From: Thraustochytrium sp. TN22
Lineage: Eukaryota; Sar; Bigyra; Thraustochytrida; Thraustochytriidae
Length of the DNA stretch: 64,000 nucleotides
NCBI GenBank assembly: GCA_013306675.1
Contig: JABLUY010000012.1
Coordinates: 186,001 to 250,000 of the forward strand
Reading direction: 5' to 3'
Part shown: in pieces, positions 1 to 4,189 of the stretch
Position numbering within the stretch: position 1 is the first letter of the stretch
Layout of the letters: each line of letters starts with the position of its first letter
Program-made: the position numbers and the translations under genes
The notes under the pieces: generated by a model
Seen by the model: the letters and a program-made list of their open reading frames with translations, nothing else
Told to the model about the DNA's origin: nothing
The model's database searches: none

Positions 1-264
1 CCGGGCTCATTCGGTCATCGGTGCAAGTTTGGAGCTCACTGCAGCTTTTAAAAGATATCCCAATCTCATCGCCCTAGACGGAGTTTAATCAGGATAGCCA
101 TATTATCCCTAGTAAATCGGCTCTCCTGCTTGCGCTCGACTGACCTGTTGCTATCATGATTCTAATCATTTTTGGAACTTTCAACTACTGGGTTTGTATG
201 GAGGCGTAAAGTGTTGGTCACTTCCGACTGGCCTGTGCGGATGCTGAGGCCAACTTGGGCTGCA
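1..264. other. Non-coding left edge and 3' side of the transposon
   Basis: No gene is recognisable here. The stretch is visibly more AT-rich than the rest of the window and lies 3' of the minus-strand transposase. It contains one arm (55-65) of a short inverted repeat whose partner is at 4179-4189. No RNA gene was recognised. Confidence 0.5.
55..65 (+). repeat. Left arm of an 11-bp inverted repeat flanking the transposon
   Basis: ATATCCCAATC reads here, and its exact reverse complement is at 4179-4189. The match does not extend outward, and no clear target duplication flanks it. It could be a short terminal or subterminal repeat, or a chance match. Confidence 0.35.
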
Positions 265-1257
265 TCAAGGGCACGATGGACTCGTGCTGAGGCTGCTGCG
301 AGAGGATGTTGAACTATGGCTTGATGGGGTGTCGGTGTAGCTGGCTTGGGCTACGTGGTCGTTCATGCTCTGCGCTGTAGGGGTACCGGACGAGGCACTG
401 GCGCTGCTCGAATCGACATGATCGAGGCAAATGGGCGAAGGTGTTCCGCTGACGTTTGTCTTGCGCTTCTTGAAGCCTTCGTGAGGCTCGACGCGCACGC
501 GCGTGTGCCACTTGGAAAAGCAGGTTGTGCGTTCATTCTTTCTCATGAACACGTGCAGAGGCACACCGCAGATGGTGCAACGACGGTGCGTTTGCTTGCC
601 GCAGATGACGCAGAGCCGCTTGGCGGGAATCCTCTTGTTGTTGGCGTTGAAGGATGCTTTTCCCGCTGCCTCTGAGTCATGTTGTAGTGCGGCATCGAGG
701 CGGATGTCGCGGGCTTGGCCGTGGTTGAAGAACTTCTGCAACTCGGGGGTTCGCTTGCGCTTACCGGCGGTCACGAGGTCCCTCGCCGCTTCCCTGGTGA
801 GCCCAGTGGGCTTGGGCATGCTTGGCTGCATGTTGAACTCCACCTGCGCCGTATCGAGCTGCCTGCTCCTGTAGACGTGACGGACCATGTCGACAGTGAG
901 GCGGAACGAGACAGTGCTGAGCGCTTCAGAGCGGTTCACCTTGTCGCGGAGGGCCTTTAGCCCGTCGCTGTCTTCGAGGTTGCTCTTCCTCGCAGCCTGT
1001 AAGTAGCGGTAGACCACGATGGCGTTGACAACGAGCTGCTTGTACGTGCGCAACGCGATGTTCTGGTCGCAGCTCAGATTCATGCACTGCGTGTTGGTGA
1101 TCTGCTCCACGTACTGTGTGCTTCCGTCGACGCCGCCCTTTGCGACGTTGTATAGCTCCTGCGGTAAGCACTTGATGACATGCACGGGCCGCATGGGCCC
1201 CTTCAGAGCGACAAGCTTGCGCAAGGCGCGCCACAGCCGGAAGAGCGAGCTCAGCAC
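265..1257 (-). pseudogene. piggyBac-type transposase, C-terminal part with the third aspartate and Cys/His-rich domain
   Basis: The block reads from a non-ATG position because it continues an interrupted gene. YNVAKGGVDGSTQY (about 1117-1155) matches the piggyBac GGVD-x-x-D/S-Q segment that carries the third catalytic aspartate. It is followed by a helix-rich stretch with YKQLVVNAIVVYRYLQ, corresponding to the family's membrane-like buried helix. The C-terminus carries CVICGKQTHRRC, CTICGVPLHVF and CFSKWH, the zinc-binding cysteine-rich domain piggyBac uses to bind its transposon ends. It ends in a Ser/Thr-rich tail. This block shows that the YqaJ domain is flanked by transposase on both sides, not merely adjacent to it. 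Confidence 0.65.
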
Positions 1258-1891
1258 CGCCCCCTCCTCCTCGCCGAAGATGGCAGGTGGCTTGGGCGGC
1301 GCACCCGCTGTCGATGCTCTGGTGCGCCCATGTCGTGAGCTTGTCCGCCCACGGTTTCAGAGCGCGCTCCATGGCGAGCCGGGCGTCCGGAGGCACTTCA
1401 ACGAGGCAGGCGTACAAACACGAACTCGTGCTGGCAGCAACGTAGAGCACGTGATCGATTTGGAGGACCACAGCTTGGTGCAAGACTTGCGCGCGGTGCT
1501 CGGCAGGTATGGCCTTCCACCAAGTCTCGTCCCCAACAATGGACGTGAAGTAGTTCTTGTTCATCTGATTGCTCAGGATACGTGCGTCTAACGCGACTCC
1601 AGGCGCGACGCGCGTCTTGATCTCGACGCTGCATAGTACTGACGATGCGTCGCACTCCGCGCCTGGAAGCCGGACGCGAGCGACTCCATCCGGCGAGACT
1701 GCGAGCCCCGGAACGGTCTTGTGCTGAATGAGGCCGACCTCGAACATGCACTCGCACCACGCCTGCTTACGTATGCTTGAGGCCACGGACGCCTCGTTCA
1801 TAGACCCGGTCCTCTTGTGCTTGTTCGATACGCACCGGGTGAAGTCCCAGGAGCGGGAGATGATACGAGCCATCTCCTCGTCCGACATCAT
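1250..1891 (-). pseudogene. YqaJ/lambda-exonuclease-type nuclease domain inside the transposase gene
   Basis: The block shows the hallmarks of the YqaJ branch of PD-(D/E)XK nucleases. There is an N-terminal asparagine-glutamate helix (MNEASVASSI), then GLIQHK...GLAVSPDG with the metal-binding Asp (about 1688-1690), then VEIK with the Glu-x-Lys pair (about 1612-1631). Downstream is QVLHQAVVLQ, resembling the conserved glutamine helix of the family. Such domains in phage and large DNA viruses are 5'-3' resection nucleases that work with strand-annealing proteins. Here the block is in the same frame as the transposase N-terminal part, separated by one stop and 18 codons. It is followed within 100 bp by the transposase C-terminal part. 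Positions are approximate at the 3' side because the frame changes between about 1257 and 1330. Confidence 0.7.
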
Positions 1892-1945
1892 CTCGTCCTC
1901 GTTGTCCGTGTGCGCCTTCCCTCTTCTGCGCAGCAGTTGACGGTC

Positions 1946-3730
1946 CTAAGTACATTGGAACGAGATCTTATCGCTAGCAGTTTCAGTGATGCAAAAGAAC
2001 CGCAGAACGAAACAGTCGGTGCAGCGCTGAGAGCACGTGAGCGGCTTGCACTTGTCCATGAGCTCTAGCGCGATGCTCTTACGTGTCCCGGTGTTATTCT
2101 TGCTGCCTGGCAGGAACAGCGGCTCCTCGCCGGAGATTGACCGTGGCACCAGCACCAGCGTGCTGCGCATGCGCTCCGCGTGGCCGGTTCCGCACTCCAC
2201 GAAGCGGATGAGGCGAGCTTCGCGCGACGTGGCAGACTGGAAGTCGACAAAGGCGAAGGCATGGATGTCCTTCTGGTTGGAGGCTCCGCCACGGCTGAGC
2301 TGCACTGTTGAGCGCATCGTGAAGATTTCGCGACCTTGGCGCCCTCCGTCTGGCACCACATTCGGCCGGGTCGCGGCCGACGCACCAGCATCAATCTCTT
2401 TCTGCTTGAGCTCACTCTCCCCCCGCATCGGGTGGTCGATCTTGCCTACCATGCAGAAACTGCAGTTGTTGGAGGCGAGGGTCTCCCAGAGCAGCTTCTT
2501 CGAGTAGCCACGATCGGCGGCCACTAGGCAGCCCATGTCCTTCCCGAGGCGGACCTCAACATCCTTCAGCAGCGCAACCACCGCGTGTTGCTGGCTCCAC
2601 TCTTCACGCCGCTGGTGGCGGATGGCGTACACGACGCGAAGGAGCGAGTCCGCGATGTTGTCGTTCTTGATGCCGTCCTTACCGGCCTTGCGGTTGCTGA
2701 TGCTCCTCACCTGCACATCTCCTGCGCGCGAGCCAACGAGCTCGTCGTCAATGACCAGCGTGGAATGTGGGCTCATGACCATGTTTCGAGTGGCCTTGAA
2801 GGCAGTGACTTCCATGTGCTCCCAGTACTTGACCATGTCAGACGTGTCCGTCCATGTCGTCGAGGTCGACACGCCCATGTTCGGATCGACCATCGTGATG
2901 CACCGCTGAATGCGGTTGAACATCTCGATGCCGAGGAGTTGAACGTTCGGGCCAATCACACGGCGGAGAGGTGTAATGGCCATCTCGAAGCACAACTCCT
3001 TTGAGAGATTGAGCACCTGCAAGAAGTTGTACATGGCGAGGAACAGCCAAAAGTCCTGCTCTGTAAGCGTGGCCTTGAAGAGCGTGAGCATCTTTCTATG
3101 AGCGTGCTTGAAGAGCTCGTGAACGAAGTCTTCAGCCAGGAGGTGGAAGACATCGAAGACACCTATCTCGTCGGGATCGCGGCCGAGGTTGCTCAGCGTT
3201 GTTTCCACGCGATCCTTCATGTACTTGACATGAGCCTTGGCACGCTGGTCGAAGAGCATTGACCTCGCATCTTCCTGCCACATGAGCTCATACTCGTCCG
3301 GGCAGGGGAGCAGCTCCCAGTCACCTGACACCTCCGCATCGGTGACCTTGACTGCCGCAGCCTTCGCGGAGGCCTTGCTGCGGCCTGGCTTCCTGGAGTC
3401 GGCCGCGTTGAAAAGCGGGCATGCCCTGGAGCTCGTACGTTTGTGGCTGGTCGATCCGCATTTGCACCGCGTCTCAGCCTTGCGACCCTTCGTTGCCTTT
3501 CGAGTCGCGCTTGAGCCGGGCAAGCCACGCTCGGTCGGTTCGTCGACCAACGCAAGTATGTCTTCGAAGTCTTGCTGCGCAGCGGCCTCAGCACGAGCAT
3601 CCTCGTCGCCAAGCTCCTCTCCTTCTTCGTCTTCGTCCCCTGTGTCCCGCTTGTCCAGGGGCACGAACTCGCTGTCGCTGTCGCTGTCGCTGTCGTCCTC
3701 CACGCGGTGGTTAGGCCTCGCCGATGCCAT
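1946..3730 (-). pseudogene. piggyBac-type transposase, N-terminal part with the first two catalytic aspartates
   Basis: The first plausible ATG is at 3730 (MASARP). The reading frame is open for another 160 bases upstream, but there the codons look non-coding. An acidic N-terminus (Asp/Ser run) is followed by a small Cys/His knuckle (CKCG...H...C) and then the RNase H-like transposase core. The first catalytic region reads IDDELVGSRA (about 2741-2758), followed by SNRKAGKDGIK. This matches the piggyBac pattern of a DE pair, an R-x-x-x-x-N-K stretch and GIK. The second catalytic region reads AADRGYSKK (about 2497-2523), matching the piggyBac D-N-x-x-T-S site position. The block ends at a stop at 1946. 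The frame then stays open on the far side into the YqaJ block. Catalytic assignments rest on family pattern, not on an alignment program. Confidence 0.7.
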
Positions 3731-4178
3731 GATGTCGCAGTGCGGGCCCGACTCCACGTCCAAGCGCTGCGGCAGGGTCGTACGAGCTGAGAGCAGGCAC
3801 AAGGCACCCGCCAGGGCCGCCTGCAGCCGCGCGCCGCAGCGCCTGCGGCTCCAGCGCGCTCCGCGACGAAGTCGCGCGCGAGCTCCCCCCAAAGCCGCTC
3901 TGGGCGAACTGCCGAGCTCATCTCATCCTAACCACCACGCCTTCGGCCAAAATGAATAGGGGGCAGGAGCCTTGGGTCGCTTCGAGTGGGCCTCTTCAAG
4001 CTCGGCCCCATCGCTGCGTTTTTGATCGAATGCGGAACTAACTTCGCCAGACTCTAGGCCACTTTTTTCGAGCAAATCGGGAGTAAAGTACCCTCTTAAT
4101 ACGCTTTAGTGCCCCCTGCGCCGGGCGTCGCCGAGGGACCCCCGCGTTGTAGGCGGATACGAGTAAGCATAGAGCTGT

Positions 4179-4189
4179 GATTGGGATAT
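4179..4189 (-). repeat. Right arm of an 11-bp inverted repeat flanking the transposon
   Basis: GATTGGGATAT reads here, the exact reverse complement of 55-65. It lies on the 5' side of the transposase gene and 71 bp from the stop of the neighbouring CRAL-TRIO gene. Confidence 0.35.

Follow-up and report, generated by a model that had tools for sequence, protein, structure and literature searches.

On the minus strand of a 64,000-nucleotide stretch of the Thraustochytrium sp. TN22 genome (contig JABLUY010000012.1, positions 186,001 to 250,000; hereafter the window), the parts of a transposase and of a nuclease are interleaved, and the question is whether they belong to one protein or are chance neighbours. 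An earlier note on this DNA had read the locus as a broken piggyBac transposase with a YqaJ-type nuclease lodged between its second and third catalytic aspartates. When the window was compared with the rest of the genome (37.9 megabases in 453 contigs, the window being on contig C33), the sequences indicated, with high confidence, that a YqaJ-type nuclease is predicted to lie between the second (D2) and third (D3) catalytic aspartates of a piggyBac-like transposase. The comparison was made between the window family (lineage A) and five relatives, lineages B (C239), C (C232), D (C151), E (C111) and F (C322).

Domain order and reading frames

The minus strand has all the blocks named in the earlier note, in the order that it gave, and they map as follows, listed in the direction of translation (D1, first catalytic aspartate).

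1949-3730, minus strand: open frame of 594 codons from its ATG, with the knuckle, the helical region and DDE regions 1 and 2, continuing into the nuclease
3413-3466, minus strand: N-terminal Cys/His knuckle, CKCGSTSHKRTSSRACPL
2747-2749, minus strand: codon of D1 in VIDDEL (IDDELVGSRA), from the piggyBac alignment
2513-2515, minus strand: codon of D2 in AADRGY (AADRGYSKK), from the piggyBac alignment
1322-2068, minus strand: YqaJ/RecE-type nuclease block, from profile comparisons
1946-1948, minus strand: in-frame TAG within a transversion patch; the three other full copies lack it
1793-1795, minus strand: Glu of nuclease motif I (GSMNE)
1688-1690, minus strand: catalytic Asp of the nuclease, SPDG (GLAVSPDG)
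1616-1624, minus strand: nuclease E-x-K, VEIK (K at 1616-1618, E at 1622-1624)
1487-1489, minus strand: Gln of the nuclease Q helix (HRAQVLHQ)
1303-1309, minus strand: change from the nuclease frame to the D3 frame, found in 14 of 14 copies
265-1356, minus strand: 363-codon open frame with DDE region 3 and the Cys/His-rich domain
1126-1128, minus strand: codon of D3 in KGGVD (AKGGVDGSTQ), from the piggyBac alignment
505-612, minus strand: Cys/His-rich end-binding domain, CVICGKQTHRRCTICGVPLH...CFSKWH, with the piggyBat cysteine-rich domain as its top profile match in the PDB (E 0.044)

In the window, DDE regions 1 and 2 and the nuclease share one frame, interrupted by the single TAG, and D3 lies with the end-binding domain in another. 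Three further full-length copies of lineage A (contigs C109, C81 and C394) have a 998-codon frame that comprises the N-terminal region, DDE regions 1 and 2 and the nuclease, followed by region 3 and the Cys/His domain in a second, overlapping frame of 363 codons; two of these copies were read directly for their frame content.

As for the other lineages, a single frame holds the DDE part, the nuclease, the region-3 part and the cysteine-rich domain in B (1213 codons), C (1248 codons) and D (1227 codons). Lineage E has the same order in one frame, of 1040 codons in the stretch read and 1064 in the genome table, with a degenerate region 3. In lineage F, known from search tables alone, matches to the beginning of the DDE part, to the nuclease and to the C-terminal part fall within one 1227-codon frame, the matched stretch excluding the D3 residue. 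The order proposed from the window thus recurs elsewhere in the genome, in the three near-identical copies for the first three blocks, in lineages B to E and, from tables, in F; each of the five lineages A to E carries the nuclease. The N-terminal Cys/His knuckle occurs in A, B and C, and no clear knuckle was found in D and E. Two internally deleted relatives, one on C48 (L033) and a lineage-B derivative on C111 (L053), are without the nuclease, D1 and D2. On contig C11 (around 134502-136814), the search tables place matches to the nuclease and C-terminal parts inside one 3580-codon frame, the DDE part not being among the matches.

Identity of the nuclease block

At E ≤ 1, the nuclease block matched PHROG 434, a RecE-like exonuclease family, in three of the five lineages (B 2.3e-6, A 6.9e-5, D 0.29) and PHROG 149, an exonuclease family, also in three (A 0.0017, B 0.048, C 0.062); the window's own block matched PHROG with E 4.4e-4, and the control blocks (window DDE, lineage B DDE and lineage B C-terminal) gave no nuclease match there. 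Compared profile to profile with 18 YqaJ sequences (17 from viral contigs and one from a protein of the same genome, picked from 80 returned), the block had a probability of 94.7 and an E value of 5.6e-8, the alignment covering its first half as far as SPDG; the same comparison was negative for the DDE block (probability 0.2) and for the C-terminal block (probability 0.1). The top PDB profile match was the exonuclease 3syy (E 0.0096), and W..LR...T, Glu, SPDG, E-x-K and the Q helix occur in this order in A and B. At the level of profiles, the PHROG and profile-profile matches thus bear out the earlier assignment of the block to a YqaJ-type nuclease related to lambda exonuclease, and add RecE to its kin.

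Pfam by itself does not decide for YqaJ, and NCBIfam profiles gave no match. A 46-position Pfam family, SgrT, which aligned over the Q-helix region, was taken as a chance match, since about 33 residues were covered and the score was below the cut-off in every scan. Elsewhere in the genome, a separate frame (L050, on C78) has a clear YqaJ domain (82.5 bits) and is the sole Pfam YqaJ match at the search threshold.

Identity of the transposase part

Regarding the transposase, the spacing between D1 and D2 is 78 residues in both A and B, equal to the D268-D346 interval of piggyBac, in which the third catalytic residue is D447 (PMC7351741). Against a two-sequence piggyBac/piggyBat profile (hhalign), the DDE block aligned in register from the helical region through D1 to D2, with E 3.8e-4 and a probability of 36; the C-terminal block did so at KGGVD, with E 0.014 and a probability of 3. 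These scores are weak, and the register is right. The C-terminal block has a conserved Cys/His pattern that may correspond to a cysteine-rich cross-brace domain, and the cysteine-rich domain of piggyBat is its best match in the PDB, but a weak one. Pfam DDE_Tnp_1 was matched in two of the five lineages (best E 0.00042; A 0.011).

Since the target is not TTAA and the Pfam cut-off is not reached, both points having been tested, the DDE part is filed as piggyBac-like on its sequence and not as a proven member. The genome has three DDE_Tnp_1_7 matches above the cut-off, which are other proteins with long open frames (L038 on C398, L039 on C16 and L040 on C76) and possibly genes kept by the host. 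The best of these matches aligns profile positions 2-349 of 349 within 375 codons, so that this protein is without the nuclease insertion.

The element, its copies and its mobility

The locus was first delimited as 265-3730; the blocks do fall inside these limits, but the element is larger. It is a complete transposon on the minus strand (55-4189 with its duplications), with 4127 base pairs (bp) between 4-bp ATAT duplications and CCCAATC as its inverted ends:

55-58, no strand: ATAT target duplication, 4 bp, at the right end of the element, from flank comparison
59-65, minus strand: right terminal inverted repeat, GATTGGG in the orientation of the element
4179-4185, minus strand: left terminal inverted repeat, CCCAATC
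4186-4189, no strand: ATAT target duplication, 4 bp, at the left end of the element

The full-length copies on C109, C81 and C394 differ pairwise at 1-6 of 4135 positions. The C-terminal part has 128 matches in the genome, 115 of them in a 363-codon frame (by hand count, after removal of 13 rows with other frame lengths), and the DDE part is found at high identity in four places (7 of 7 candidates scored); from these counts, about 111 copies of lineage A are shorter. The 14 complete short copies read are each 2337 bp long between their flanking tetranucleotides, and the 10 that were aligned share one internal deletion that takes away the knuckle, the first two catalytic aspartates and the beginning of the nuclease. 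The near-identical full copies, together with the many uniformly deleted short ones, indicate that lineage A has spread recently.

In the loci read, 21 left ends were found, with the right end present for 18; the flanking tetranucleotides are identical in 14 of these 18 pairs and differ in 4. The identical flanks are mostly ATAT, with CTAT once and TTAT once, and TTAA occurs at none of the 18 pairs. In two places (L029, 2059-8534, and L030, 2885-9360), a full copy and a deleted one are arranged head to tail with a single ATAT in common, as if the elements had inserted at each other's duplication, and the coordinates of the genome matches suggest further tandem and inverted pairs of this kind. 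An internally deleted copy akin to lineage B (L053, around 1925-3463, on C111) suggests that lineage B was also mobile in the past.

State of the copies and of the active sites

The window copy had been called broken, and the TAG and the frame change are indeed there, but the former is probably a base-call artefact and the latter is common to all 14 copies checked. Compared with the copy at L028, the window has 30 differences, grouped in four patches (1224-2012, minus strand; three inside the nuclease block and one after it), and 29 of them are transversions. Natural divergence, taken between A and its C48 relative, comprises 117 transitions and 111 transversions; were all changes equally likely, at least 29 transversions among 30 would have a probability of 8e-5. 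The TAG stems from one difference in these nearly pure transversion patches, hence its probable origin as an artefact.

As for the frame change, the surrounding 41 bases do not vary among the 14 copies checked, of which 4 are full and 10 deleted; the change may be recoded, or it may mark elements mobilised from outside. A short intron at this point was considered and rejected, because the residues on either side match lineage B.

Lineages A and B each retain D1, D2 and D3 as well as the nuclease residues (Glu, Asp, E-x-K, Gln), so that, by sequence, both active sites look intact. Lineage C keeps D1 and D3, with Gly at D2 and no E-x-K; lineage D keeps the three aspartates and has lost the Glu of E-x-K; lineage E has lost D2, D3 and E-x-K. 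These three have long open frames and occur once each at the search sensitivity used, and their genes may be kept by the host; the 1248-codon frame of lineage C (L032, 4780-8523, on C232) is a candidate for such a gene.

Place and age of the nuclease in the fold

The earlier note had left two options, that the nuclease occupies the insertion slot of the transposase fold or that it extends it. In piggyBac, the insertion domain comprises residues 372-433, between D346 and D447 (PMC7351741). Lineage B has 458 residues between D2 and D3, with about 144 before the nuclease and 66 after it. The nuclease therefore seems to extend the slot and not to replace its content, because the approximately 144-149 residues from D2 to the nuclease are enough for a domain the size of the 62-residue insertion domain of piggyBac.

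The identity to A of the nuclease block is 51% for B, 37% for C, 32% for D and 26% for E; it is 42, 33, 24 and 19% for the DDE block and 42, 31, 21 and 24% for the C-terminal block, in the same order, and the nuclease is the most conserved of the three blocks in 4 of 4 comparisons. In five-taxon trees, one for each block, D and E are always joined; A and B are together or unresolved in two of them, and the remaining tree places A with C (support 0.76). With this conservation and these largely matching trees, the nuclease behaves, in the alignments, like a long-standing component that was inherited along with the rest of the protein. Around it, A and B have short, mostly imperfect repeat pairs, with one exact 12-nucleotide inverted pair in B, and the pairs that border the nuclease are not alike between A and B in place or sequence. 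Their reading as traces of a separate insertion was rejected, as they are short, imperfect and placed differently in the two lineages; the repeat search thus gave nothing of the clean insertion boundaries that the earlier note had named as a possible refutation, and the other half of that refutation, relatives without the YqaJ block, was not seen among lineages A to E.

Proposed function and its alternatives

Domain order, inverted ends, duplications and recent spread are seen in the sequence, and the role of the nuclease is inferred. The nucleases YqaJ, RecE and lambda exonuclease start at a double-strand end and degrade its 5' strand. The DDE centre would cut and join the transposon ends at ATAT, as piggyBac does at TTAA, and the nuclease, being in the same complex, would act on the 5' strands of the DNA ends exposed by that reaction. 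Its most likely job would be to resect the donor break, which would then be repaired by homology from the sister copy, so that the lost element would be replaced and the copy number would rise. Transposition by the DDE centre with processing of exposed 5' strands by the nuclease is, as a whole, the best explanation, with about an even chance of being right; the chances of 5'-end processing of some kind are similarly balanced, and resection of the donor break in particular is put forward tentatively. In its widest form, which is possible and held with equal reserve, the proposal would have two metal-dependent nuclease centres in one chain of a eukaryotic transposase, one set in the fold of the other, the RNase H-like centre moving the DNA and the YqaJ-type centre processing 5' strands by second-strand cutting or by resection, with excision coupled to copy-restoring repair, and altered descendants kept by the host.

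Several results weigh against the architecture or the function proposed. Regarding the nuclease, the window pieces match neither Pfam DDE_Tnp_1_7 nor YqaJ at E ≤ 1; the YqaJ cut-off of 22 bits is not reached in any lineage (best 17.4 bits, E 0.0054, in lineage A, one of the five); SgrT, matched in four of the five lineages, has a better score there than YqaJ (best E 0.0006; 20 bits, where the SgrT cut-off is 27); and the nuclease block of lineage E has no PHROG match. For the transposase, DDE_Tnp_1_7 stays below its curated cut-off (best E 0.002, in the trimmed blocks of one of the five lineages), a search of the PDB with the DDE-block profile returned no piggyBac entry, and the in-register alignments with piggyBac have low probabilities (36 and 3). 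The Pfam test suggested in the earlier note, DDE_Tnp_1_7 together with YqaJ, therefore fails when taken literally. In addition, C, D and E lack an intact E-x-K, so that nuclease activity is not needed for what keeps their frames open, and the lineage A copies read never encode the whole protein in one frame, despite the spread of this lineage. Finally, no relative was found for the nuclease alignment or the lineage-B DDE block in IMG/VR, nor for the lineage-B protein among GTDB contigs and plasmids, and a phage collection gave one weak exonuclease match only (E 0.1); all these collections cover few eukaryotes, and the searches therefore say little on distribution.

The main rivals of 5'-end processing are a purely structural role of the nuclease and second-strand cutting. 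The former, in which the fold would bind DNA and shape the target or the flanks, catalysis being incidental or lost, is unlikely: the long frames that C, D and E keep despite a non-intact E-x-K are in its favour, as is the contact of the piggyBac insertion domain with target DNA (PMC7351741), and it is opposed by the retention of the nuclease Glu, Asp, E-x-K and Gln in B and in the recently spread A, and by the nuclease being the best conserved block in every comparison with A.

Another possibility, rated as distinctly unlikely, concerns the transposase and not the nuclease, namely that the DDE part belongs to another or a new superfamily. This would suit the slightly better Pfam match to DDE_Tnp_1, the ATAT target and the weak profile scores against piggyBac; it has to face KGGVD at D3, the equal D1-D2 spacing, the alignment in register that includes the helical region before D1, the putative C-terminal cysteine-rich domain, the palindromic 4-bp duplication and the ends starting with CCC. 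The ends of piggyBac start with CCC as well.

Second-strand cutting, with the DDE centre cutting the 3' strand only and the nuclease making the 5' cut, would be a single-chain parallel to TnsA and TnsB of Tn7, and is judged improbable. The fold of TnsA is of the PD-(D/E)XK type. In Tn7, the endonuclease TnsA cuts the 5' ends of the transposon beside the DDE protein TnsB (PMC9527255), and the two active sites that look intact in A and B would agree with such a division of labour; yet the closest relatives of the nuclease, YqaJ and RecE, are exonucleases and not site-specific endonucleases. Moreover, piggyBac excises through hairpins and has the palindromic target TTAA (PMC6900584, PMC7351741); ATAT is likewise self-complementary and fits such hairpin chemistry, for which a second nuclease would be unneeded.

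The weakest alternative, that a piggyBac relic was invaded by a separate gene or element with YqaJ, can draw on the two frames with a stop between them in the window taken alone, on the separate YqaJ frame of ISL2EU elements (PMC4482050) and on the short imperfect repeats near the block borders, but adjacency or chance order of the blocks is rejected by the single-frame lineages and is extremely improbable: the nuclease has an equal position amid conserved transposase sequence in A, in four single-frame lineages and in one known from tables, the repeats are not common to A and B, and nuclease and flanks have the same order of relatedness (B, C, then D/E), one weak node aside. The contention of the earlier note that the blocks are not merely adjacent therefore stands, given the 998-codon frame in three copies and the single-frame order of the other lineages.

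Comparison with known systems

The piggyBac-like transposase with its embedded nuclease resembles piggyBac and piggyBat (DDE_Tnp_1_7; PDB 6x67 and 9c0f) in the order and motifs of the three aspartates, the D1-D2 spacing, the helical region before D1, a putative C-terminal cysteine-rich domain and a palindromic, AT-only target duplication of 4 bp. It differs from them in the additional nuclease of about 250 residues, with 458 residues between D2 and D3 in lineage B against 101 in piggyBac, in ATAT instead of TTAA, in the Cys/His knuckle of A, B and C, and in its score below the Pfam cut-off. With the YqaJ, lambda exonuclease and RecE nucleases (Pfam YqaJ; PHROG 434 and 149; PDB 3syy), lineages A and B share the motif order; unlike these free-standing enzymes, the nuclease is embedded in a transposase, and it too remains below the Pfam cut-off.

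Searches of the literature for piggyBac with YqaJ returned no such fusion in titles and abstract openings, with subscription journals and transposable-element libraries outside the search, and those for piggyBac with PD-(D/E)XK returned none, although the form of the name used could overlook papers with the common spelling.

The endonuclease TnsA is not known to belong to the YqaJ family. Tn7 is alike in having a second nuclease beside a DDE transposase (PMC9527255) and unlike in that TnsA and TnsB are two bacterial proteins and the nuclease is not inside the DDE fold. ISL2EU, of the PHIS superfamily, is also a DNA transposon with a DDE transposase and a YqaJ-domain protein; it differs in that YqaJ is in a separate frame, the transposase is of the Harbinger group with THAP and helix-turn-helix domains, and the duplication is AT (PMC4482050), whereas the window family has YqaJ inside the transposase frame and a 4-bp ATAT duplication.

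In conclusion, the role of the YqaJ protein of ISL2EU is described as unknown (PMC4482050), and its fusion into a transposase would tie the nuclease to the transposition complex, making the question of its role addressable with one polypeptide. The arrangement suggests that the insertion slot of an RNase H-like transposase can hold a whole second nuclease, in a possible parallel to the two-nuclease transposase of Tn7, and if this nuclease steers the repair of the donor break, it would offer a cut-and-paste element a direct route to gain in copy number.

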